Shown here piece by piece: positions 20,254 through 32,723 of a stretch of DNA of 64,000 nt. How positions within the stretch are numbered: the first letter of the stretch is position 1; each line of letters opens with the position of its first letter. The translations under genes were made by a program, and so were the position numbers. Source of the stretch: Alphaproteobacteria bacterium (lineage in GTDB: Bacteria > Pseudomonadota > Alphaproteobacteria > Rickettsiales > SXRF01). Where the stretch lies: the NCBI GenBank assembly GCA_025360605.1, contig JANYBV010000052.1, positions 1 through 64,000 on the forward strand, in the 5' to 3' direction. The notes beneath the pieces are model-generated. The model worked only from the letters and a program-made list of their open reading frames with translations, had not been told where the DNA came from and did not search any database.

Positions 20254-21702
20254 TTATTCGAGTATAAATCCACCTTCGCCATTGAGCTTGGGCTCGGACG
20301 ATAATTTTTTATCTACTTCTTTTTTCATCGGCTGCTGGCTATACAGCTCGCCGTTGAGCAGCAACTGCAAATCGCTCGGCGGTACATAGCCATCCAGCGG
20401 GGTTTGCAGGCTCCTGTCAGCCACCGGATGCACGATATAAGGAGTGACGAGGATGACCAGCTCGGTCTGGTTGTTTTGGAACTGCGTCGAACGGAACAAC
20501 GCCCCTAACACAGGCACATCGCCCAATCCGGGGAATTTACTAATATCATTGCTGGTTTCGCTTTTAAGCAAACCCGCCAACACGAACGTATCGCCGCTAC
20601 CAAGCTCCACTGTCGCCGAAGCCTTGCGTGTTTCTAAAATAGGATAATTGAAGGTGGATACTTTGATCGGGTTATTAAAGTTGAGCGAGCTTACTTCCGG
20701 CGCAATGGTAATGCTCATGCGGTTCTTGGACATAACCACCGGCGTGAAGTTCAGGCTGACACCAAACGGTTCATACTGCACCGTTACCGTTCCGTTCTGG
20801 CCGGACACCGGCAGAGGATATTGACCACCGGCAAGGAAGCTGGCAGGCTTTCCGGTTGTTGTCGTCAGTGTTGGTTCAGCAAGGATGGTTGCCAGACCCA
20901 GCGTTTCAATCGCGTCAATGGCCGTAGTTTCCTTGTTATGGTTCCAGCGGAATAAAAGCCCCGTATCCTTGCTGGCATTGCGATCAAGCAATCCGGTGCG
21001 GTCGACAGGTACGCCGCCTACGGTCACAGCATTGTTGGTGGCGTTGTTGATGCCAATATCAGCACCCTGCAAAATCTGGAATTTGAGGTCAGTGCCAAAT
21101 CCGGGGGCAAAGGCGTTTTGCATGTTAATCCCGAATTTCTTCAGGTTATCACGCGACATTTCTACCATTTTCACACGGATCATCACCTGATCGGAGCCAT
21201 TGGTCTTCACCATGTTGACGACCTTGTCGTTCGGCCCGATAAAGGTGGAAGCAACATCGCGAATACTTTCGGATTCACTGACCGTTCCGGCAAACCCGTC
21301 CATCACCAGACCGCCATCCACGGTTTTGAAGCCTACGTCTGCTTCCGGTGCAACACGCTTCACGGCGCGCTGGAGGTTACTGATATTGTGGGTGACATCA
21401 ATCACCGCATTCATGATTTCGTTTTCGTCCACATCCATGACGTAGAGCGTGGTTTCACCGATTCTCTTGCCGCGCACGAACACCAGCTTTGGCGACACCA
21501 CCTGCACGTCCGCCGTCACCGGATCGGCGATCACCACCGATGCTGCCGGACGGTCAAGATGCACCATCGTGCCTTTATTCTGCTCAACGTAAATCATCTG
21601 CTCTTCTTTACTTAATGCTGAGCTGTGCATTAAGGCCAGCAACAGACCCGAAGCCAGAGTACCTTTAATTGTCTTGTCTATATTTAATGATAAACGGCTC
21701 AT
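20254..21702 (-). CDS. cpaC: Tad pilus outer-membrane secretin CpaC/RcpA
   Basis: A 482-residue secretin. A signal peptide (about 1-30) precedes the pilus-and-flagella N-terminal domain (YVEQNKGTMVHLDRPAASV), a BON-like region (about 105-160), and a type II/III secretin domain with FLAGGQYPLPV, VSLNFTPVVMSKNRMSITI, VELGSGDTFVLAGL and the ending TELVILVTPYIV. It forms the multimeric pore for Flp pili. Its start overlaps the cpaB stop by four bases. Confidence 0.95.
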   Translation of the reverse strand: MSRLSLNIDKTIKGTLASGLLLALMHSSALSKEEQMIYVEQNKGTMVHLDRPAASVVIADPVTADVQVVSPKLVFVRGKRIGETTLYVMDVDENEIMNAVIDVTHNISNLQRAVKRVAPEADVGFKTVDGGLVMDGFAGTVSESESIRDVASTFIGPNDKVVNMVKTNGSDQVMIRVKMVEMSRDNLKKFGINMQNAFAPGFGTDLKFQILQGADIGINNATNNAVTVGGVPVDRTGLLDRNASKDTGLLFRWNHNKETTAIDAIETLGLATILAEPTLTTTTGKPASFLAGGQYPLPVSGQNGTVTVQYEPFGVSLNFTPVVMSKNRMSITIAPEVSSLNFNNPIKVSTFNYPILETRKASATVELGSGDTFVLAGLLKSETSNDISKFPGLGDVPVLGALFRSTQFQNNQTELVILVTPYIVHPVADRSLQTPLDGYVPPSDLQLLLNGELYSQQPMKKEVDKKLSSEPKLNGEGGFILE

Positions 21703-22754
21703 TTTTTATCCTGATCGAAATCAATATTTTCAGACTTGTCACCATGCAACACATGGACACGTGCGCCGATGGGAGATTTGTGGTTCGAAAGCAGCTCACT
21801 AATGTCGCTGTCACGTGTGTACCCTTCCCCGTGGGTAAGGTCACCTGTATCTTTAGCGCCTTCTTTTTCGCCAGCAGCAGCTTCATGCGGGGCACTGTTG
21901 TCAGAAGATCTATCCGACAGTTTTGAATCCGGTGTGGACAGGCTGCGAAGGGCAATGGAGATTTTTCCGAGATCAGCAGCCACCGCAATGGCCTCGGCAT
22001 TGCGCGGCGAGACTTCAACAGTAATGGTTTTTGCGAGAATCGCTTTATTTTCAGGATTATCGATCATCTGGTCAACCGCCACCACGCGTGCATTGCGCAC
22101 AAAGGTCTCACTGACCACAAATTCATCCGTTGAAGATGCGTTGTTAAGCTGTGGTGCTTTAATGCGATGTGTAACGATCAGGTCGATGCGATCCCCTGGG
22201 GATACGAATCCAGCATTACCCGAAGTAGGATTCACACCGATAGATACAGCGCGCATGCCTGGTTCCAATACCGCAGACATAAAGCCACCCTCACCAGATT
22301 TCATGATAGCAAACTGCGGAACAGGGTCACCTGCGTGGAGCGCACGGCGTACAACAGCACCGTTAAAGTCTGTGAGCTTTACAGCCCCCTCATACAGGTA
22401 ATTTTCACGAGCAACGGAAACAGGTTGAGGAGCAGAAGGCTGAGGCGCATCAGGATTAGCATTATCAGCTTGAGGCTGTTGCTGCTGGGCAGCCAGAGCA
22501 GGTGCAGAGGCATCCGGTGCCGCACCCCAGTCGAGATCCTGCAACCCTTGAATAAAACTTCCCACCACGAGATCGCGCTTGGCGACGACAATGCGCGAAG
22601 CCTGCGCAGGTGTGGTGGTCGCCGCGGGAACCACAGGAACGTCATTGAGACGGCTGCGCAGCAACACAATCGTGAAGATGATAATGCCACCTGCCAGCAG
22701 TAATAAAAGCGCACGTCTTGACAATCCCAATCCCTCCTTAAACCCTGTAAGCAT
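21699..22754 (-). CDS. cpaB: CpaB/RcpC pilus assembly protein (SAF domain)
   Basis: A 351-residue protein with an N-terminal transmembrane helix (about 13-31), then an SAF/CpaB domain (RIVVAKRDLVVGSFIQGLQD and RALHAGDPVPQFAI), then the RcpC-like region MRAVSIGVNPTSGNAGFVSPG. Family members are periplasmic partners of the secretin. ATG 22754 has no ribosome site, whereas an AAGGAGG at 22733-22739 sits eight bases before an in-frame TTG at 22724; translation may start there, giving a protein ten residues shorter that begins M-SRRALLLL. It is the first gene of the minus-strand half. Confidence 0.9.
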   Translation of the reverse strand: MLTGFKEGLGLSRRALLLLLAGGIIIFTIVLLRSRLNDVPVVPAATTTPAQASRIVVAKRDLVVGSFIQGLQDLDWGAAPDASAPALAAQQQQPQADNANPDAPQPSAPQPVSVARENYLYEGAVKLTDFNGAVVRRALHAGDPVPQFAIMKSGEGGFMSAVLEPGMRAVSIGVNPTSGNAGFVSPGDRIDLIVTHRIKAPQLNNASSTDEFVVSETFVRNARVVAVDQMIDNPENKAILAKTITVEVSPRNAEAIAVAADLGKISIALRSLSTPDSKLSDRSSDNSAPHEAAAGEKEGAKDTGDLTHGEGYTRDSDISELLSNHKSPIGARVHVLHGDKSENIDFDQDKK

Positions 22755-22815
22755 AGTTTTGTATGCTTAAAAAAGTATTAAGTGTAAGCGCAATTACACT
22801 AAAACAATCAATCCA

Positions 22816-22830
22816 TTAAACGTCAATTAC
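22816..22830. promoter_or_regulatory. Near-match CtrA-like box upstream of cpaB
   Basis: TTAA-N7-TTAC, 7 of 8 core bases, about 60 bases before cpaB in the 253-base gap shared with rsh. A second TTAA pair at 22853-22866 has a six-base spacer and was not counted. The region is AT-rich, so the match could be chance. Confidence 0.3.
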
Positions 22831-23007
22831 CCCTAAAATCTGTAAACGTATTTTAACTGATTTTAAGGTTTTGGCATGCTAAGTTTGATTCAAATTCCTG
22901 CACGGTTATAAAGCGCTTTAAATGCACTTCTAAACCGTATCATGATGGTCTACAATAAAAACAAGTGATATGAAAACAAATAAAAAACTTTTGCGTACTG
23001 AACTCCC

Positions 23008-25170
23008 ATGATCAGACAATATGAACTCGTAGAGAAGGTCAAATCGTATGACCCCGATGCCGACGAAGACCTTATAAACCGCGCGTATGTGTTCGCCATG
23101 AAAGCGCATGGCACACAAAAGCGTGCCTCCGGTGCGCCCTATTTTTCGCACCCCGTCGAAGTGGCGTATAAACTCACCCAGTACAAACTCGACACCGCAT
23201 CCATTGCCACCGCTTTGCTACATGATACTGTCGAAGATACCGACGTGACGCTGGATGATATCGAGGCGAGCTTCGGTAAAGAAATTCGCGGCCTTGTCGA
23301 CGGTGTGACTAAATTGTCACGACTGGAGGGAAAATCCGAGAACCTCAATCAGGCAGAAAATTTCCGCAAGCTCCTCATCGCCATGTCAGAAGACTTGCGC
23401 GTGCTGCTGGTCAAGCTGGCCGACCGCCTGCACAATATGGAAACGCTGAAGTTTATCAAGAATCCGGAAAAACGCCAGCGCATCGCCCGTGAAACGGTGG
23501 AAATTTATGCCGCACTCGCCGAGCGTATCGGTATGCGTAACCTAAAAGACGAATTGCAGGATCTGGCGTTCGCTGAACTCTATCCGGAAGCTCGTGAATC
23601 CATTGTCAAACGCCTTGAATTCTTGCGTAATGAAGAACAGGCCGAACTGGATAAAACCATGGCGGCCATCCGCCAGAAACTCGATGCGGAAGGACTGACC
23701 AAAGCCCTTATTTACGGCCGTGAAAAAAAGCCGTTTTCCATCTGGAAGAAAATGGAAAATAAAAACATCGAATTCGAACAGCTCTCCGACATCATCGCGT
23801 TTCGTGTGGTCGTTGATACTATTGCCGAAGCGTATCAAACCCTCGGGGTTATCCACGCTGAATGGCACACCATCCCTGGACGTTTCAAGGATTACATCTC
23901 TACACCTAAATCCAACGGCTACCAGTCGCTACATACCGCTGTGCTGGGCCCCGGCCAGCAACGCGTTGAAATCCAGATCCGCACGAAAGAAATGGACGAA
24001 GTGGCCGAATATGGTCTCGCCGCGCACTGGTCGTATAAACAAAATGACAAGGCCACACGCGACGGCAAGCAATTCCGCTGGATCAGGGAATTGCTGAACA
24101 TTCTCGAACAATCCTCTAATCCTGAAGAATTCCTCGAAAACACCAAGCTGGAAATGTACCACGATCAGGTGTTCTGCTTCTCGCCCAAAGGAGACATCCT
24201 TGCCTTCCCGCGCGGGGCGACGCCGGTTGACTTTGCTTACGCGGTACATTCGGGTGTCGGTGACACCTGCGTGGGCGCAAAAATCAACGGACGCATTGTA
24301 CCGCTGCGTACCAAACTGAAAAACGGCGATCAGGTGGAAATCATCACCAGCAAAACGCAAACCCCGTCGCCAAGCTGGGAACGTTTCGTCATTACCGGCA
24401 AAGCAAAATCCGAAATCCGTAAATTCGTCCGTATCCAGCAGCGCAACGAATACGTCAATCTCGGCCGCGCTGTCCTCGCCAAAACCTTCAAGCAGGAAGG
24501 CGAAGAGCTGAACGAAAAAATGATCGAGCCGCACCTACCGGAATTCAATAAAAAATCCGTAGAGGATTTACTTGCAGAAGTGGGGGAAGGCCTCATCAGC
24601 CGACAGCACGTCATGGAAGTGGTAATGGGTGAACGCAAGCCCGTGGAAGCCATCGGCAGCGTCACCTCGGTGATCAATAACCTGTCCAAACCGTTCCGCA
24701 AAAAGAAATCGGGTGAATCCACGCCCATGCCGATCAAAGGCCTCATGCCCGGAATGGCCATCCATTTCGCCGGATGCTGCCACCCGCTTCCGGGCGACCG
24801 CATCGTCGGCATCGTCACCACCGGCAAGGGCATCACCATCCACACCATCGATTGCGAAACGCTGGAAAACTATTCCGATGCGCCGGAGCGCTGGATTGAT
24901 GTGGCATGGGAGCGCGATCAGGCAGACAGCCATCATGTCGGCCGCGTGCGTATGCATGTCAGCCATGAACCTTCAGCACTCGCCACCGTCACCAACGTGA
25001 TCGCCAAGGAAAGCGGCAATATCAGCAACCTGAAAATTATCAACCGCTCGATCGACTTCTTCGAAATCCTTATCGATATCGAGGTGCGTGACGTGTCCCA
25101 CCTTAATAATATCATCGCCAACCTGCGCAGCAAAGAAGTGGTGCAGAGTGTGGAGCGCTGGCAGACGTGA
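23008..25170 (+). CDS. rsh: Bifunctional (p)ppGpp synthetase/hydrolase (Rsh, RelA/SpoT family)
   Basis: A 720-residue protein with all four Rsh domains: HD hydrolase with an intact metal site (His48, His72-Asp73, ALLHDTVEDTD with Glu76-Asp77), synthetase (YGREKKPFSIWKKM from about 235, RFKDYISTPKSNGYQSLHT at 291-309, EIQIRTKEMDEVAEYG), TGS (FCFSPKGDILAFPRGATPVDF, about 388-450) and a C-terminal ACT domain (about 650-720). RFKD is the synthetase variant of bifunctional enzymes, so both activities are expected. It controls the stringent response. Transcribed divergently from cpaB. In related bacteria it is near pdxJ-acpS; here three acyltransferase genes intervene. Confidence 0.96.
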   Translation: MIRQYELVEKVKSYDPDADEDLINRAYVFAMKAHGTQKRASGAPYFSHPVEVAYKLTQYKLDTASIATALLHDTVEDTDVTLDDIEASFGKEIRGLVDGVTKLSRLEGKSENLNQAENFRKLLIAMSEDLRVLLVKLADRLHNMETLKFIKNPEKRQRIARETVEIYAALAERIGMRNLKDELQDLAFAELYPEARESIVKRLEFLRNEEQAELDKTMAAIRQKLDAEGLTKALIYGREKKPFSIWKKMENKNIEFEQLSDIIAFRVVVDTIAEAYQTLGVIHAEWHTIPGRFKDYISTPKSNGYQSLHTAVLGPGQQRVEIQIRTKEMDEVAEYGLAAHWSYKQNDKATRDGKQFRWIRELLNILEQSSNPEEFLENTKLEMYHDQVFCFSPKGDILAFPRGATPVDFAYAVHSGVGDTCVGAKINGRIVPLRTKLKNGDQVEIITSKTQTPSPSWERFVITGKAKSEIRKFVRIQQRNEYVNLGRAVLAKTFKQEGEELNEKMIEPHLPEFNKKSVEDLLAEVGEGLISRQHVMEVVMGERKPVEAIGSVTSVINNLSKPFRKKKSGESTPMPIKGLMPGMAIHFAGCCHPLPGDRIVGIVTTGKGITIHTIDCETLENYSDAPERWIDVAWERDQADSHHVGRVRMHVSHEPSALATVTNVIAKESGNISNLKIINRSIDFFEILIDIEVRDVSHLNNIIANLRSKEVVQSVERWQT

Positions 25171-26222
25171 TGAACGCCAAGCCCCCCGCCATTCCCGCAC
25201 TCGATGGCCTGCGGGCGATGGCCTGCCTTGCGGTGCTATATCGCCACATCGGAGAACTGGCAATCGACGCGCCCTTCCTATATGGAAAGAGCGGAGTGAA
25301 TCTCTTTTTTACGTTAAGTGGCTTCCTCATGACCCACCACTACCTGCCGGATTCACTTTCATGGCGCTACTGGATAGCTTATCTGATCCGGCGTTTTTTT
25401 CGCGTATATATGGTTTTTGCAATTGTAATGCTCATGTTCTGGGCATGTTCGGAATTTTGGAAACCATTACCGATCTTTGAAGATTTTAATGGGGATACAC
25501 TCATCAATGAATTAACTCTCCACGGCTTCATTTCTACGTACTGGACTATTGCGATTGAAATAAAATTTTATCTGTTCTTTCCGATTATTGGAATTTTGTT
25601 TCTGCTTTTGAAATTATCCCCCCAAAAGAAATTTATTCTAATGACACTGGCTTTAGCTGGCTCACTTATGCTCAACCCATTTAATGATATCGAGGACCGA
25701 TCAATCCTCTGGAAACATATCCCCTATTTTATAGGCGGCATGTGGGGCGCGCTTACCATTCAAACATTCGATCTCAGGCAGCTAATGCCGACGCGTGTCT
25801 GGAATGGCGTGTTGTTAATCTGCTTATTAGCTGCAATTCCCTACGCCTTTTTCCTGCAAATGGATTTTTTTAATCCGCAGCACATACACTACGATCACCT
25901 ATACTATCTTGTTTGCCCATTATTTGCAGTCATTACGGTCATGGCTACCCTTTGCAGCGGGTGGATGCTATGGCTATTAGCCAATCCCGCAATGCGCTTT
26001 ATTGGCCTTATCAGCTACAGCCTGTATCTATGCCACCGCTTGGTCTGGGGGATTGGATTAAACCTGTTTCCTGCCCCTAGCCTGTCCATGGCCTGTAGTA
26101 TTGTTGCCTTTACTTTTGTATTCGCAACGGCATTCCATTACGTCATTGAAAAACCCTTTAACAATTATGGAAAAAAATTGGCGGCAAAGATACTGGACGC
26201 AACCGATAAAAAAACATGTTGA
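25170..26222 (+). CDS. Acyltransferase-3 family membrane protein, copy 1
   Basis: A 350-residue polytopic protein of the OafA/acyltransferase-3 type. The N-terminal signature IPALDGLRAMACLAVLYRH contains the Arg and the catalytic His, and [15 protein letters not shown] follows, then about ten hydrophobic helices. Such enzymes add acetyl or other acyl groups to cell-surface glycans. ATG 25170 overlaps the rsh stop by one base (TGATG); a GTG three bases earlier is an alternative. GC content falls inside the gene relative to rsh. It is the most divergent of three tandem paralogues. Confidence 0.88.
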   Translation: MNAKPPAIPALDGLRAMACLAVLYRHIGELAIDAPFLYGKSGVNLFFTLSGFLMTHHYLPDSLSWRYWIAYLIRRFFRVYMVFAIVMLMFWACSEFWKPLPIFEDFNGDTLINELTLHGFISTYWTIAIEIKFYLFFPIIGILFLLLKLSPQKKFILMTLALAGSLMLNPFNDIEDRSILWKHIPYFIGGMWGALTIQTFDLRQLMPTRVWNGVLLICLLAAIPYAFFLQMDFFNPQHIHYDHLYYLVCPLFAVITVMATLCSGWMLWLLANPAMRFIGLISYSLYLCHRLVWGIGLNLFPAPSLSMACSIVAFTFVFATAFHYVIEKPFNNYGKKLAAKILDATDKKTC

Positions 26223-26240
26223 TAGGAAAACTAAATAGCA

Positions 26241-27269
26241 ATGACTAAGCCATCACATTCCATCCCTGCCCTTGATGGTGTGCGAGGACTGTCATGCCTG
26301 ATGGTTGTCTTTTTTCATGCAGGTCTCGCGGGGTGGTTTCCTGCTTTCTACAAAATTGGCACATTAGGGGTTATGCTATTTTTTTCCTTGAGTGGATTTT
26401 TAATGGCACTGCATTATTCGCCGCAAACCCATTCCAAACCCTATTGGATAGCATTTTACCTAAAGCGCTACGTTCGGCTTTATCCAACCTTTGTTTGTGT
26501 GGTTTTACTGGGGAGATTACTTTACCCCCATCTTTTCATCGGCGAAAAACGTATTTATGAAAGTGTGCCGAATGAATTATATACTTTATTACTGTTTATT
26601 GACGGTTCGGTATTTTGGACCATTCCTAACGAATTCACCTTCTACTTAGTGTATCCTTTTTTGGCGTTTTTCTTTACCCGCGCACAAACGCATGCTTTCA
26701 GCTTCAAGACTTTTGTTGTACTCTGGCTTGTATGGTTGCTGATCGCTTTTACCGGTGGATTACCTGATTGGAATTATTACATCTATTTTCTGGGCGGTAT
26801 GATTGCCGCTTATAGCTTTAAAGATTTTTCATTCAGCCCTTCGAGTATTCACTACTTCTGGGACCTGACCGCTTGGTTCACCATCGCCTGCATCACTGTG
26901 ATTCTGTTTTATTACAATGGCAATAACGGACGAAGCTGGATTGATATCAGTGGAGACAGCTATGTATTTTCTCCTTTACTGGCACTTTTTCTGTTAAGTA
27001 TAGCGAAAAGTCGGGGCATTATATGTAATATACTGGCGTTTACACCGCTCCGGTCTCTGGGGATAATAAGCTATAGTATTTATCTCACTCATAATTTTGT
27101 ATTATTCTCGGGCGCCGAATTGTTACCGGATTACCTTCATTGCGCATGGTTCATAACGTTTTTAGTTTTGCTGGTGGCTGTCAGTTTTTACTTTATTGTT
27201 GAAAAGCCATTTCATACACTCTCCGTCAGATGTGCCAGAAAGATAATGCATAAAAGTGTTTTGAGGTAA
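26241..27269 (+). CDS. Acyltransferase-3 family membrane protein, copy 2
   Basis: A 342-residue polytopic protein. It begins with SIPALDGVRGLSCLMVVFFH (catalytic His at the end of the motif) and MLFFSLSGFLMALHY. The central membrane region differs from copy 1, but the C-terminal [17 protein letters not shown] closely matches copy 3. Distinctly AT-rich. It probably acylates a surface polysaccharide; the substrate is unknown. It is nineteen bases after copy 1, with AGGA upstream of ATG 26241. Confidence 0.87.
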   Translation: MTKPSHSIPALDGVRGLSCLMVVFFHAGLAGWFPAFYKIGTLGVMLFFSLSGFLMALHYSPQTHSKPYWIAFYLKRYVRLYPTFVCVVLLGRLLYPHLFIGEKRIYESVPNELYTLLLFIDGSVFWTIPNEFTFYLVYPFLAFFFTRAQTHAFSFKTFVVLWLVWLLIAFTGGLPDWNYYIYFLGGMIAAYSFKDFSFSPSSIHYFWDLTAWFTIACITVILFYYNGNNGRSWIDISGDSYVFSPLLALFLLSIAKSRGIICNILAFTPLRSLGIISYSIYLTHNFVLFSGAELLPDYLHCAWFITFLVLLVAVSFYFIVEKPFHTLSVRCARKIMHKSVLR

Positions 27270-27279
27270 ATTCTTCCCC

Positions 27280-28317
27280 GTGAATAAAGAATCACCCGCC
27301 AATTGGTCGCCATCCACCTCCATCCCCACCCTTGACGGCGTGCGTGGACTCGCATGTTTGTTAGTTGTATATTTCCACGCGGGTCTCGCGGGATGGGTTC
27401 CTGTCGTCACAGCGCTGGGAGATGTTGGTGTGCAATTGTTTTTTACATTAAGTGGCTTCCTGATGGCCTATCATTACTTACCAAAGGAACATAGTATCCG
27501 ATATTGGCTCGCTTTTTACATGCGTCGCTATTTTCGCCTTTACCCTGTCTTTTTTATAACAGCAATTATAGCTTATATACTCAATAAATCACTAGGCAAA
27601 GAAGTAGCATTTGAAGAAAGCAACCTGCTGGATATATTGTTTTTAGTAAAAGCTCAGGGCCTTTTCTGGACTATTCTGGTAGAACTTAAGTTTTATGCTA
27701 TATATCCTTTTTTATCGATGTTATTTATAACAAATACAAAAAACAGATTATACAATGTCGCGATCAAAATATTTGTAGTTTTTGCCATAATCATACTTCT
27801 TGCTAATTCAAATAACAGATTTGAACGAATACTAATGTTTTTTTTCAATGGAATGCTTGCAGCACTATTGTTAAAAAATAATTTTTTGAAAAATTTACTA
27901 TCGGGTAATAGCTGGTGTATTGTAACTACGATTGTCGTAGCGATTGTATCAATTATACTTTTCTTGAATCCAACCCATCTTAATCTTGAGCATTCCAATT
28001 TTTACAATTATTATTGGTTTTTTTCTCCATTACTTGCCATCGGAGTTCTGTCTTCAGCACTCAGCAGTGGAGCGGGAATTAGTTTATTAGATAATAAATT
28101 CATACGGTTATTTGGGCGTATAAGCTATAGTATGTACCTTACTCATTTTTTTGTAGAAACATATTCCACATCCTTACTACATGGCGTATTTCATAATTTA
28201 TTAATAATGTGGACACTTGTTATCCAAGTATCAATTTTCTTTTATTACGTTATTGAAAAACCATTTCATACATTCGCAGTGAGATGTGCCAGAAAGATAA
28301 TGCAAAAGGAATTGTAA
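27280..28317 (+). CDS. Acyltransferase-3 family membrane protein, copy 3
   Basis: A 345-residue polytopic protein that begins at GTG 27280. N-terminal motif [19 protein letters not shown] and [16 protein letters not shown]. The centre is the most AT-rich coding stretch in the window, with many Asn, Ile and Phe codons, while both ends resemble copy 2 closely (a 23-base identical run AGATGTGCCAGAAAG...ATGCA near the 3' ends). This suggests gene conversion or a partial duplication. The tail contains the AAGGAATT ribosome site for pdxJ. Confidence 0.87.
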
Positions 28318-28320
28318 CCC

Positions 28321-29052
28321 ATGGACAAACTACGCCTAGGCATCAATATTGACCATGTGGCGACGGTGCGTAATGCGCGCGGCGGCGATAACCCCTGCCC
28401 TGTGCGCGCGGCGCAAATGGCCAAGGACGCAGGCGCGGACGGCATCACCGCCCACTTACGCGAAGACCGCCGCCATATCAAAGACCACGATATTGAACGG
28501 CTGAGGCACGAGATCGACCTGCCGCTGAATCTGGAAATGGCGATGACTGAAGAAATGCTGACGATTGCTTTGAAAGCAAGGCCGCATGCGGTGTGTATCG
28601 TGCCGGAAAAACGTGAAGAGGTGACCACCGAAGGCGGGCTGGATGCCGTGCGCTATGAAAAAATGCTTAAACCGTTTGTGGAAAAGCTGCAACAAAACGG
28701 CAGCAGGGTGTCGCTGTTTATCGACGCAAATCCCGAGCAAATCCACGCCGCACAGCGCATTGGTGCGCGTGTTATTGAAATCCACACCGGACGCTATTGC
28801 CACCTGCTGGGCAAAGCCCGTCACGACGAACTGGCACTGATATCCGAATCCGCCATGCTCGGGCGGGCGCTTGGCCTTGAAATCCACGCGGGCCACGGAT
28901 TGAGTTATGAGAATGTCGGCCCTGTCGCCGCTATTCCTGAAATCGTCGAACTAAATATTGGCCATTTCCTGATCGGTGAAGCAATTTTCACCGGACTTGA
29001 CGAGGCCATCCGCGCCATGCGCGCCGCCATGGATAAAGCGAGGCATGCATGA
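28321..29052 (+). CDS. pdxJ: Pyridoxine 5'-phosphate synthase PdxJ
   Basis: A 243-residue TIM-barrel enzyme that joins 1-deoxyxylulose 5-phosphate and 3-amino-2-oxopropyl phosphate to make pyridoxine 5'-phosphate (vitamin B6). It has [17 protein letters not shown] at the N-terminus, [41 protein letters not shown] and [13 protein letters not shown] near the phosphate site. Length is typical. It begins three bases after the third acyltransferase and overlaps acpS by four bases. Confidence 0.97.
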
Positions 29053-29462
29053 TCCTCGGCATTGGCAGCGACATCACCGATATCAGGCGTATTGAAAAAT
29101 CACTCGAACGCTTTAAAGAGCGTTTTGAACAACGTATTTTCACTGAAGCAGAACAAAAAAAAGCAACATCACGCGCCTACCCCGCACGCACCTACGCCAA
29201 GCGGTTCGCCGCCAAAGAAGCCTGCGCCAAAGCACTGGGAACCGGCATGAATCTGGGAGTATTCTGGCGCGATATGGAAGTGGTCAACCGCACCGGTGGC
29301 GCTCCCAGCATGCGCCTAAGCGGCGGTGCGTTGAAACGCTTGCAGGCAATGACCCCCAAGGGGATGGAAGCTTTCATCCATGTAAGCCTGAGTGACGAAT
29401 ACCCCTATGCGCAGGCACAGGTGATAATTTCCGCCGAATCTAACGTAAACGGCAGCGCCTGA
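29049..29462 (+). CDS. acpS: Holo-[acyl-carrier-protein] synthase AcpS
   Basis: A 137-residue phosphopantetheinyl transferase that activates acyl carrier protein with coenzyme A. The metal-binding Asp8 ([12 protein letters not shown]) and Glu57 ([13 protein letters not shown]) are present. Start ATG overlaps the pdxJ stop (ATGA). In many alphaproteobacteria lepB and rnc come next; here hemD follows instead, two bases on. Confidence 0.96.
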
Positions 29463-29463
29463 C

Positions 29464-30207
29464 ATGCATAATAAAACGATCCTGATTACCCGCCCGAAAG
29501 GCGACGAAACTGCAATCATGGAACTGTTCCATGATAATGAATATCGCGTCATCCATGAGCCACTGACAAGCATCTATCTCGACCATACGAAGCGTCAGGC
29601 GCTGCACCATGCGCTGGGGAATGAACCCGATGCCGTCATCATCACCAGCCGCCATGCCGCGCAAGCACTCTACCTGCTTTCCGATATCCGTGATCTTTTT
29701 CTAATCTGCGTCGGGGAATCCACCGCCGAAGCGGCAATGTCGCTGGGATTCAGCCGCGTATCTGTGGCAGGTGGCAATGTCGAAAAACTCGTCGCCGGTA
29801 TCATCGATAGCTACGACGAAGGCTCGCGTTTTGTCTACCTGTCCGGCGAACATGTGCGCTCCGACCTCGGGGTGTTGTTGGCTCAGTGCAATATGCAGGT
29901 GGAACGGCTGGTGTTGTATGAGGCAGTTGCCAGCGATATGCTATCGGATGTTTTGATCGAACACTTAAAACGCCGCCAGATTGATGCGGTCACGTTTTTA
30001 TCGCAGCGCACCGCACAAATTTTTACTCAACTGCTTGATGATGCGGACATGAAAGAGGCACTCACCTACCTGCACGCCTTCTGCCTGAGCCAGACCATTG
30101 CAGATGCGCTGAAAAACGAGCCGTGGCAGCAGGTACATGTGTCGGATGAAGCAACGCTTGCATCTCTGGTGGAGTGCGTGGATAATGTATTCCGGTCCCA
30201 AGCATAG
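29464..30207 (+). CDS. hemD: Uroporphyrinogen-III synthase
   Basis: A 247-residue protein of the HemD fold. It opens KTILITRPKGDETAIMELF, contains AVIITSRHAAQALYLL, a CVGESTAEAAMSLGF segment, YLSGEHVRSDLG and VTFLSQRTAQIF. The family is poorly conserved, and the call also rests on its place in front of mic60 and hemY, the usual alphaproteobacterial order. It cyclises hydroxymethylbilane to uroporphyrinogen III for haem. The usual upstream hemC is absent from the window. Confidence 0.87.
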   Translation: MHNKTILITRPKGDETAIMELFHDNEYRVIHEPLTSIYLDHTKRQALHHALGNEPDAVIITSRHAAQALYLLSDIRDLFLICVGESTAEAAMSLGFSRVSVAGGNVEKLVAGIIDSYDEGSRFVYLSGEHVRSDLGVLLAQCNMQVERLVLYEAVASDMLSDVLIEHLKRRQIDAVTFLSQRTAQIFTQLLDDADMKEALTYLHAFCLSQTIADALKNEPWQQVHVSDEATLASLVECVDNVFRSQA

Positions 30208-30228
30208 GCATCAGGTTAAAGGGTAGTT

Positions 30229-31434
30229 ATGTCCGATGAAACGGAAGAAGAACAATCGCATGTGGGATCTTTCCTGAATGATCTGGTGCGACGCTTCGCG
30301 TATGTGTTTGGATTGTTCTTTGTCGTCTGGATGTTACTGGCAAAAAACATTCCCAGCCTGTTCTCGCCGCTGCCATCCAAGCCAATAGCAGAGCGGGTTA
30401 CGCAGGAGCCTGTTGTACCCGCGCCCGCTACCAGAATTCCTGCTAAAGTGGAAGATATAAAACCTGCCGCCGCTACCGAAATAAAAGAAGAGCCCAAAGC
30501 CCCCGTTGCAACCACAGAAACAGGCGGTGCAAATGTACAAAATAAACCTCTGGAAGAACAGCTTGCACAGCTGACCAGCGAGCTTTCCACCGTTAAAAAA
30601 CAACTGGAAGAACGTGACGAGGGAACCAAAAAGCAAAGCCAGTCCATCGAAGACAAGCTCGCCGAACAGGACAAGCTGATTGATGCGCTGAAAGAACAAA
30701 TTGAACAACTGCAATCCAGCAGCACACATCAGGTCAGCGCCGTAACTGCCTTTTCAATTATGAAACAGTCCGCACTACGCGGTGAAGCATTCGAAAATGA
30801 ATTCAAGCAAATTCAGGAACTCATCCGCGACCCCGCGCAAAATGCACTGCTTTCACTGATACGTCCGTTTGCCGACACCGGAATCCCGACTCCGGCCGCT
30901 TTGCAAATCCAGTTTGACAAAACAGTCTCTGGCGCACTGGCTCCGTCCTCGAAAGACAATACACTGGCTGCAAGCCTGCAATCGCTTATCCGCATCCGCA
31001 AGGAAGGGGAGCAACAGCAAGGACAGGATGATGAATCCGTTGTGGCACGCGCTGAAGCCAAAATTCAGCGCGGTGAAATTGCATCGGTACTAAAGGAAAT
31101 GCAGGCACTCTCACCACCCATGGCCGACAAATTTGCCGCGTGGACTAAAAATGCGCGTAACACCATCGCCGGATATAATGCGCTGGATGCCTTACAGATT
31201 GCCATTCTCAGAAACAAGGAAATACCGCAGGAAGTGGCCCCGTCCCCTGTAAAATCCAAAGCAAAACCAGCGGCACAACCCACCCCCGAAGCAGCCAAAG
31301 AACCGGCACAACCCGCACCTGAAACCCATACAGATACCGATGCACTGGATATCGAAAAGCAACTGCTGCCAGCCAACATCTCTACACCCGACACAAAACC
31401 GGCCATCACCCCAACGGATAAAGATAGCGAATGA
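30229..31434 (+). CDS. Mitofilin/Mic60-like inner membrane protein
   Basis: A 401-residue protein with a short cytoplasmic N-terminus, one transmembrane helix (about 23-38, RFAYVFGLFFVVWML), a Pro/Ala-rich linker, a coiled coil (about 100-170, with EEQLAQLTSELSTVKKQLEE) and a C-terminal mitofilin-like domain, then a Pro/Ala tail. Alphaproteobacterial Mic60 lies between hemD and hemY, and this gene has that position. It is thought to shape inner membranes or link them to the outer membrane. It overlaps hemY by four bases. Confidence 0.83.
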   Translation: MSDETEEEQSHVGSFLNDLVRRFAYVFGLFFVVWMLLAKNIPSLFSPLPSKPIAERVTQEPVVPAPATRIPAKVEDIKPAAATEIKEEPKAPVATTETGGANVQNKPLEEQLAQLTSELSTVKKQLEERDEGTKKQSQSIEDKLAEQDKLIDALKEQIEQLQSSSTHQVSAVTAFSIMKQSALRGEAFENEFKQIQELIRDPAQNALLSLIRPFADTGIPTPAALQIQFDKTVSGALAPSSKDNTLAASLQSLIRIRKEGEQQQGQDDESVVARAEAKIQRGEIASVLKEMQALSPPMADKFAAWTKNARNTIAGYNALDALQIAILRNKEIPQEVAPSPVKSKAKPAAQPTPEAAKEPAQPAPETHTDTDALDIEKQLLPANISTPDTKPAITPTDKDSE

Positions 31435-32723
31435 TTAATCTGCTATTGTTTCTCTTTTTTCTTACCTGCGTCGGTGTCAGCGCATCGTGGCTGGCGGAAA
31501 ATCCGGGCAACGTCATCATCCACTGGTTTGGCTACCGCATCGACACCAGCTTTGCATTCCTGATGCTACTGGCGCTGATTGCAGCAGTGGTTCTGGCATA
31601 TGTGTATATGTTCCTGCGCCATGTGGCACTGGTACCGGAATATATGACCAAACACCGCAGCCTCAAACAGTATAAAAAAGGCCTTGCCGAAATCACCTAT
31701 AGCGTTGCCGCGCTTGCCGCCGCCGACACCAAGGAAGCCTTACAACGCAACCGTAATGCAGAAAAATTTCTTGGCAAAACACCACTGACCTTGCTACTTA
31801 GCGCGCAAATCGCCCGCAGCGAAGGCGACGACGAAAAAACCCGCATGCTGCTTTCGCAAATGCTTGAGCATAAAGAAACTGAATATCTGGCGGCGCGCTC
31901 ATTATCGGAAACCGCCAATAAACAACATCTGTTTCCCAAGGCACTGGCGCTTGCCAAGCGTGCCCATGCCCTCAACGCCAAAGGTATTGCGCCTTTGCTG
32001 AGCCTGCATATCCGTCTGGGTGAATGGCATCAGGCCATACACGCCATTACCAAATCCACCCGCAAGGCACAGCTGACGCGCAATGAAATCAAGCATTATA
32101 AGACGATGGTATTGCTGAAAGAAGGGATGAAAATGCTTGAAACCGGCCATCACGATGCCGCGCTGTCCTCCGCCCGCAAAGCTCTTTCCCTGCAACCTGC
32201 TTTTGTGCCCGCCATTGCGTTTACCGCGAAATGCTACGGCGCCTGCGGCAAAAAAAATACCGCGCTTAAAATGATTTACAAGGCATGGAAAACATTCCCA
32301 AATGAACAACTGGCCGAAGAATTTCGCCTTGTCATTGCGAAGGACACCAAAGAACAGCAGATCAAAATGGTGCGCAAACTGATGTCTTTCAATCCGAACT
32401 CCAACGAGAGCGATATTGCTCTCGCACAGACCGCCATGCGGCACAGGGATTTCGCAACGGCACGGCAGTCACTCAACGCCGCGCTCGATAAATCCGAAAC
32501 GGTGCGCACCTGCAAATTGCTGGCGGCACTTGAAGAAATGGAATACCCCGATTTTGATATCAGCAGCAAATGGATTGCACGCAGCACTTCCGCTGCTCAC
32601 GATCCTGCATGGGTGTGCAGCAGCTGTGGCAAGGCTTCTGCAACATGGGATGCGCATTGTGGCGCGTGCGAAGCGTTCGATTCGCTGGAATGGAAAAAAC
32701 GCGACATAGCCTTTACAGGCTGA
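31431..32723 (+). CDS. hemY: HemY N-terminal domain protein (TPR protein of haem operon)
   Basis: A 430-residue protein with two N-terminal membrane helices (about 2-20 and 38-62) with ENPGNVIIHWFGYRIDTS between them, the HemY_N signature. The rest consists of TPR-like helical repeats (for example YLAARSLSETANKQHLFPKA). It ends in a rubredoxin-like zinc knuckle with Cys396/Cys399 and Cys410/Cys413 (VCSSCGKASATWDAHCGAC). The function in haem metabolism is not well defined. The gene ends three bases from the convergent lipoprotein gene. Confidence 0.88.
   Translation: MINLLLFLFFLTCVGVSASWLAENPGNVIIHWFGYRIDTSFAFLMLLALIAAVVLAYVYMFLRHVALVPEYMTKHRSLKQYKKGLAEITYSVAALAAADTKEALQRNRNAEKFLGKTPLTLLLSAQIARSEGDDEKTRMLLSQMLEHKETEYLAARSLSETANKQHLFPKALALAKRAHALNAKGIAPLLSLHIRLGEWHQAIHAITKSTRKAQLTRNEIKHYKTMVLLKEGMKMLETGHHDAALSSARKALSLQPAFVPAIAFTAKCYGACGKKNTALKMIYKAWKTFPNEQLAEEFRLVIAKDTKEQQIKMVRKLMSFNPNSNESDIALAQTAMRHRDFATARQSLNAALDKSETVRTCKLLAALEEMEYPDFDISSKWIARSTSAAHDPAWVCSSCGKASATWDAHCGACEAFDSLEWKKRDIAFTG

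Follow-up and report, generated by a model that had tools for sequence, protein, structure and literature searches.

How three acyltransferase genes came to lie inside a run of housekeeping genes, and what they might do there, is the question raised by a locus in a Rickettsiales genome (Alphaproteobacteria bacterium, SXRF01; assembly GCA_025360605.1). We analysed the first 64,000 nucleotides of contig JANYBV010000052.1 (the window), in which three genes, here called acy1, acy2 and acy3, stand head to tail on the plus strand in the order rsh, acy1, acy2, acy3, pdxJ, acpS. We favour, at a probability of roughly 0.72, the reading that this lineage gained at the rsh/pdxJ junction three standalone AT3 membrane acyltransferase paralogues in tandem, which are probably co-transcribed with their neighbours and would acylate an extracytoplasmic glycan.

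Three AT3 genes in a compact run

All three proteins matched the Acyl_transf_3 family (PF01757, cut-off 31 bits), with scores of 98 bits for acy1, 86.3 for acy2 and 103.6 for acy3, and the matches spanned positions 2-324, 2-324 and 3-322, respectively, of the 326-position profile. The open reading frames (ORFs) and these matches (each with an expectation value, E, of 2.6e-24 or lower) agree on three acyltransferase genes between rsh and pdxJ-acpS, as the initial annotation of the window had proposed.

25167..26222, plus strand: acy1, standalone AT3 acyltransferase, 351 aa (PF01757, E 7.3e-28)
26241..27269, plus strand: acy2, standalone AT3 acyltransferase, 342 aa (PF01757, E 2.6e-24)
27280..28317, plus strand: acy3, standalone AT3 acyltransferase, 345 aa, the most AT-rich copy (PF01757, E 1.4e-29)
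23008..25170, plus strand: rsh (RelA/SpoT homologue), upstream neighbour, with HD, RelA_SpoT, TGS and ACT domains
28321..29052, plus strand: pdxJ, downstream neighbour (PF03740, E 6e-99)
29049..29462, plus strand: acpS (PF01648, E 5.2e-17)

The sections of PMC9833829 and PMC7448272 that treat AT3 motifs describe R-X10-H, and RXXR on the cytoplasmic face of transmembrane helix 3 (TMH3), and write a further one as FFXISG. All three copies carry the R-X10-H of TMH1, beginning at residue 16 in acy1, 15 in acy2 and 22 in acy3; the putative RXXR (R76 and R79 of acy1) is invariant across them, as are the columns of the FFXISG counterpart, here FFxxSG. The genes had been called OafA-type. The acyltransferase assignment stands but that label does not, since OafA is presented in part of PMC7448272 as an AT3-SGNH fusion, whereas the SGNH domain is absent from all three copies, which are 342-351 aa long with PF01757 as their sole Pfam match. 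With the OafA/OafB fusions they thus have only the AT3 domain in common. They resemble instead the standalone enzymes Shigella Oac and E. coli WecH in domain, length class, the three motifs and the missing SGNH domain, but differ from these in forming three tandem copies within a housekeeping run rather than lying in a glycan cluster or prophage. Judged from their sequences, the three genes are ordinary standalone AT3 enzymes, and what is unusual is their seat, not the kind of enzyme. The only NCBIfam match, of acy2 to SucT, scored 17.5 bits where the cut-off is 1275, and solved structures gave no match to a profile of the three copies. Elsewhere in the genome, five other PF01757 matches occupy open frames 644-706 aa long; these may be AT3-SGNH fusions.

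The run is very compact. The spacings from rsh through the three copies to pdxJ are -4, 18, 10 and 3 bp, and acy1, starting at GTG 25167 or ATG 25170, overlaps the rsh stop codon. Because there is almost no non-coding sequence in the rsh-pdxJ-acpS run, the array is probably co-transcribed with it and translationally coupled. Candidate ribosome-binding sites were seen by eye ahead of some starts in the array, and a terminator scan returned 9 sites against 7.7 expected, an uninformative result.

Variation at the rsh/pdxJ junction

The initial annotation had held that rsh and pdxJ are neighbours in many alphaproteobacteria, and in relatives this was borne out: pdxJ was present in 38 of 80 named rsh loci, with a gap of less than 200 bp in 15, of 200-500 bp in 2 and of more than 500 bp in 21 (9 of the 42 loci without pdxJ had less than 2 kb of sequence left to inspect). 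Within the family, for which the sample comprised sixteen genomes, rsh and pdxJ lie on one contig in ten; in G003, G006, G010, G013 and G015 the stretch around pdxJ lacks rsh, and G011 has no pdxJ match. The rsh gene itself is 80-89% identical across ten named loci (L086-L095). In five of the ten comparable genomes (G004, G005, G008, G009 and G012) the two genes are adjacent, no more than about 130 bp apart. The other five, namely this genome, G001, G002, G007 and G014, carry inserts whose genes differ in each. The inserts of the four relatives are as follows.

G001, 2201 bp: three ORFs (132, 227 and 160 aa), the 160-aa product being a GNAT acetyltransferase
G002, 967 bp: one protein of 275 aa
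G007, 1132 bp: one protein of 363 aa, encoded on the opposite strand
G014, 2595 bp: one protein of 173 aa plus a glycosyltransferase-sulfotransferase fusion

At E 0.001, five of the seven cargo proteins in these four relatives had no Pfam match, and when eleven cargo proteins from the junction were compared, no between-genome pair was better than E 0.11. The acy array is missing between rsh and pdxJ in all nine other family genomes with both genes on one contig, including both members of the same genus (G001 and G002). The initial annotation had named the same three genes, with matching base composition, in all relatives as the finding that would argue against recent gain; that is not the pattern seen. 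Among the sampled genomes, the three-gene gain at this junction is specific to this lineage.

We also surveyed other junctions in eight named family loci, leaving out six repeat loci (L071-L074, L079 and L080); the labels correspond to genomes as L086 (G001), L087 (G014), L088 (G008), L089 (G007), L094 (G009), L095 (G002), L107 (G004) and L114 (G012). The pdxJ/acpS gap is at most 82 bp and the next gap, from acpS to the gene that we take to be hemD, at most 345 bp in all eight, and the presumed hemD/hemX and hemX/hemY gaps are at most 11 and 83 bp in the six loci measured. Thus, one junction has varied inserts in half of the comparable family genomes, while four downstream junctions stay closed. 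Two points temper this comparison: the genes downstream overlap or are tightly packed, which favours an open rsh/pdxJ seam from the outset, and the cpaB/rsh gap is 200-248 bp in four of five loci but 1604 bp in L107, which speaks against a single open seam. Genes at this position are also common beyond the family, because 21 of the 38 gaps exceed 500 bp. A further proposal is that the junction is a preferred docking point in the family, where an insert would fit without disturbing core translation and gain rsh-linked transcription, and where surface-modifying enzymes (the AT3 genes here, the glycosyltransferase-sulfotransferase fusion in G014) have repeatedly been placed; we regard this as improbable. 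The seam with its varied cargo is one mildly interesting point. Several Azospirillum loci share a similar short ORF between rsh and pdxJ.

Relations among the three copies

The three proteins are 33, 37 and 42% identical in pairwise comparison. They form one clade, with acy2 and acy3 as sisters, in a tree of 39 rows (Shimodaira-Hasegawa-like approximate likelihood ratio test, SH-aLRT, 97) and in a second tree of 37 rows (98/90). Rows of other genes were trimmed to the first 400 or 430 residues; for other genomes, the rows run from stop to stop. The 39-row tree omits a paralogue with an internal stop (L018), a sub-threshold match on contig C15 and the relatives' L054, L056, L057, L066 and L069. 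The 37-row tree omits eleven rows of that set, most of them long-branched (L012, L013, L014, L017, L019, L020, L052, L055, L058, L062 and L063), and the new matches L211 and L213, of which L213 is the gene of L061; the gene of L052 re-enters as L204.

A recent triplication was rejected because the proteins are only 33-42% identical and codon identity at shared residues stays close to the codon-usage expectation over most of their length. The duplication therefore appears old, and we infer one common ancestor, either before or after arrival at the locus. Of the "recent gain" in the initial annotation, the insertion may fit, but the duplication does not.

The initial annotation had also described near-identical 5′ and 3′ ends in copies 2 and 3, with diverged centres arising from partial gene conversion or from shuffling of substrate-specificity regions. 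The ends are considerably less alike than this: the nucleotide match is 77% over 95 nt at the 5′ ends and 84% over 68 nt at the 3′ ends, with no exact run longer than 23 nt (27228/28282). In five successive regions, the acy2/acy3 identity is 0.68, 0.41, 0.26, 0.35 and 0.68, and the means of 28 control AT3 pairs of 30-55% identity are 0.56, 0.46, 0.29, 0.38 and 0.32. Since the control pairs share the conserved N-terminus and the diverged middle, shuffling of specificity regions is not needed to account for the centre. The last 25 residues, on the other hand, are 68% identical in acy2/acy3 compared with 32% in the controls.

We then compared codon identity at conserved residues with the expectation from the genes' own codon usage (18 tests, p values uncorrected). 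In acy2/acy3, identical codons numbered 14 of 33 in the 5′ region against 10.2 expected (p = 0.10), 16 and 6 in the two middle regions against 16.4 and 7.4, and 24 of 39 in the 3′ region (alignment columns 281-373) against 14.4 (p = 3.5e-4). The other tests below 0.05 were acy2/acy3 over columns 339-373 (p = 0.015) and over the whole length (p = 0.015), and acy1/acy2 over columns 161-280 (p = 0.036). Gene conversion at both ends was rejected, as the codon excess is clear in the 3′ part alone. What is left of the conversion proposal is weak and confined to that part, where a short recombination tract, at most, is plausible:

27186..27253, plus strand: acy2 3′ end, putative recombination tract, 84% identical over 68 nt to acy3 28240-28307, with the 23-nt exact run
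28240..28307, plus strand: acy3 3′ end, partner of the acy2 tract (nucleotide match and codon test)

The AT content does climb from copy 1 to copy 3, as had been noted. The GC content is 0.447 in acy1, 0.411 in acy2 and 0.353 in acy3, and that at third codon positions (GC3) is 0.513, 0.433 and 0.325; rsh and pdxJ have GC contents of 0.527 and 0.567 and GC3 values of 0.639 and 0.626. The background consisted of 353 mechanically called ORFs, each 150 aa or longer, taken from the window and from 20 other stretches of this genome; their mean GC is 0.514 and their mean GC3 0.573. This set includes the three copies and is not random, since 13 of the 20 stretches were picked because they or their contig hold other AT3 genes. 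Within it, acy3 ranks last in GC and acy2 fourth from last (22, 3 and 0 ORFs lie below acy1, acy2 and acy3), and 70, 19 and 1 ORFs have a lower GC3. The 17 other AT3 genes of the genome range from 0.421 to 0.565 in GC and from 0.444 to 0.689 in GC3, with acy1 inside and both acy2 and acy3 under the two ranges. These ranges indicate that the AT-richness is in part normal for AT3 membrane proteins of this genome and in part specific to acy2 and acy3.

Such strong differences in composition would be expected if three distantly related AT3 genes had arrived separately, acy3 latest, the likeness of the acy2/acy3 3′ ends relative to the remainder being due to later recombination. Within acy3, GC3 falls from 26/50 in the first 50 codons to 86/295 thereafter (p = 0.003), which would fit a chimeric 5′ end. 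However, acy1 shows a similar though weaker step (33/50 against 147/301, p = 0.03), so that acy3 is not alone in its 5′ shift. Moreover, the copies form one clade in both trees, and no single copy has a closer homologue in the searched samples. We therefore consider serial acquisition unlikely.

Origin and possible role of the array

Searches outside the genome, beyond whose samples closer kin may exist, returned distant relatives only. Across 385 genomes of the class (acy1 and acy3) and 398 of the phylum (acy3), with only the best few candidates per genome scored, the best matches were 28-32% identical over most of the protein, the best in the class being G389 at 32%, or 42% identical over 93 residues of the conserved N-terminus. 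With the three-copy profile over 262 genomes of the order, the best match outside this genome was in the family (G003, E 8.7e-30); the best match anywhere in the two same-genus genomes had E 9.9e-8 with acy2 and E 6.6e-16 with the profile. In viral contigs, 30 pattern matches to the profile were found and none was confirmed. Plasmid searches gave 201 records for acy3, none over 80% of the query, and 137 for acy2, 105 of them over 80%; all were below 60% identity, and the listed rows were 28-39% identical. The 33 phage records for acy3 were likewise below 60%, and in the 15 listed the identity is 30-36% across some 40% of the protein.

The alternatives considered here concern origin and role and are compatible with the AT3 identification. 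One is that the three genes were assembled into an array in another organism and entered the seam in a single insertion, as its absence there from both same-genus genomes and the atypical composition of acy2 and acy3 would allow. Yet neither the viral contigs nor the plasmid (acy2, acy3) and phage (acy3) matches offer a donor, composition varies within the supposed cassette, and inspection by eye of the ORF translations of 21500-31500, six of which were scanned against Pfam, revealed no integrase or transposase. Acquisition as a ready-made cassette is thus a tentative alternative.

Another alternative is a phage-receptor or seroconversion module, in which the acyltransferases would vary a surface glycan under phage pressure in the manner of phage-borne O-antigen acetylases. 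The distant phage matches of acy3 include annotated enzymes of this kind (phage D3 and SPC32H oac, about 30-32% identical over the N-terminal 40%), and the genus is rich in AT3: this genome has 21 PF01757 matches, 20 above the cut-off and one of those with an internal stop, G001 has 12 and G002 has 13, compared with 0-7 in thirteen other family genomes. The G002 count may split genes, as that assembly is in 210 pieces with several matches at contig ends. Against such a module, the phage match is limited to the commonly conserved N-terminal region, the acy genes are chromosomal with no phage gene recognised next to the array, and PADLOC, a defence-system search, matched neither the three copies nor five cargo proteins. 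We judge this role quite doubtful. Two further observations concern the AT3 complement and surface genes of this genome. The match with an internal stop codon, L018 (G000:C45:119245-120150), is possibly a decaying copy. Elsewhere on the window's contig (L188:10853-13611), glycosyltransferase-like, sulfotransferase-like and AT-rich acyltransferase-like (GC 0.377) ORFs, named by eye from their first residues, lie together.

The lineage-gained tandem of paralogues remains the reading that we prefer. The AT3 family mostly acylates extracytoplasmic sugars, according to the relevant parts of PMC9833829 and PMC9558356. By analogy, the membrane domain would accept an acyl group (in many cases acetyl) from acyl-CoA in the cytoplasm and hand it on to a sugar or glycan at the outer face of the inner membrane, and the three diverged copies may serve different acceptors or positions. 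Decoration of surface sugars by acy1-acy3 is, on this analogy, probable. A literature search returned nothing relevant on rsh/pdxJ/acpS operons and nothing on gene conversion in tandem O-acetyltransferases.

Several observations weigh against this reading. The composition gradient is hard to reconcile with long shared residence, because copies diverging in place should have like base composition, and it leaves some room for separate arrivals. No glycan gene was recognised next to the array. The promoter scan, with 18 sites against 12.4 expected, was uninformative and leaves room for promoters within the genes. The AlphaFold model, built from a three-row alignment, was mostly helical and poor (mean predicted local distance difference test score, pLDDT, 57.6), and the hydropathy profile did not separate into individual helices, of which the AT3 fold has ten across the membrane. 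Finally, the genus sample beyond this genome consists of two genomes, one of them 79% complete.

The locus indicates that putative surface-modification genes can sit inside a core-metabolism run and leave hardly any spacer. Surface chemistry could then track the growth state of the cell, provided that glycan acylation is expressed together with rsh.

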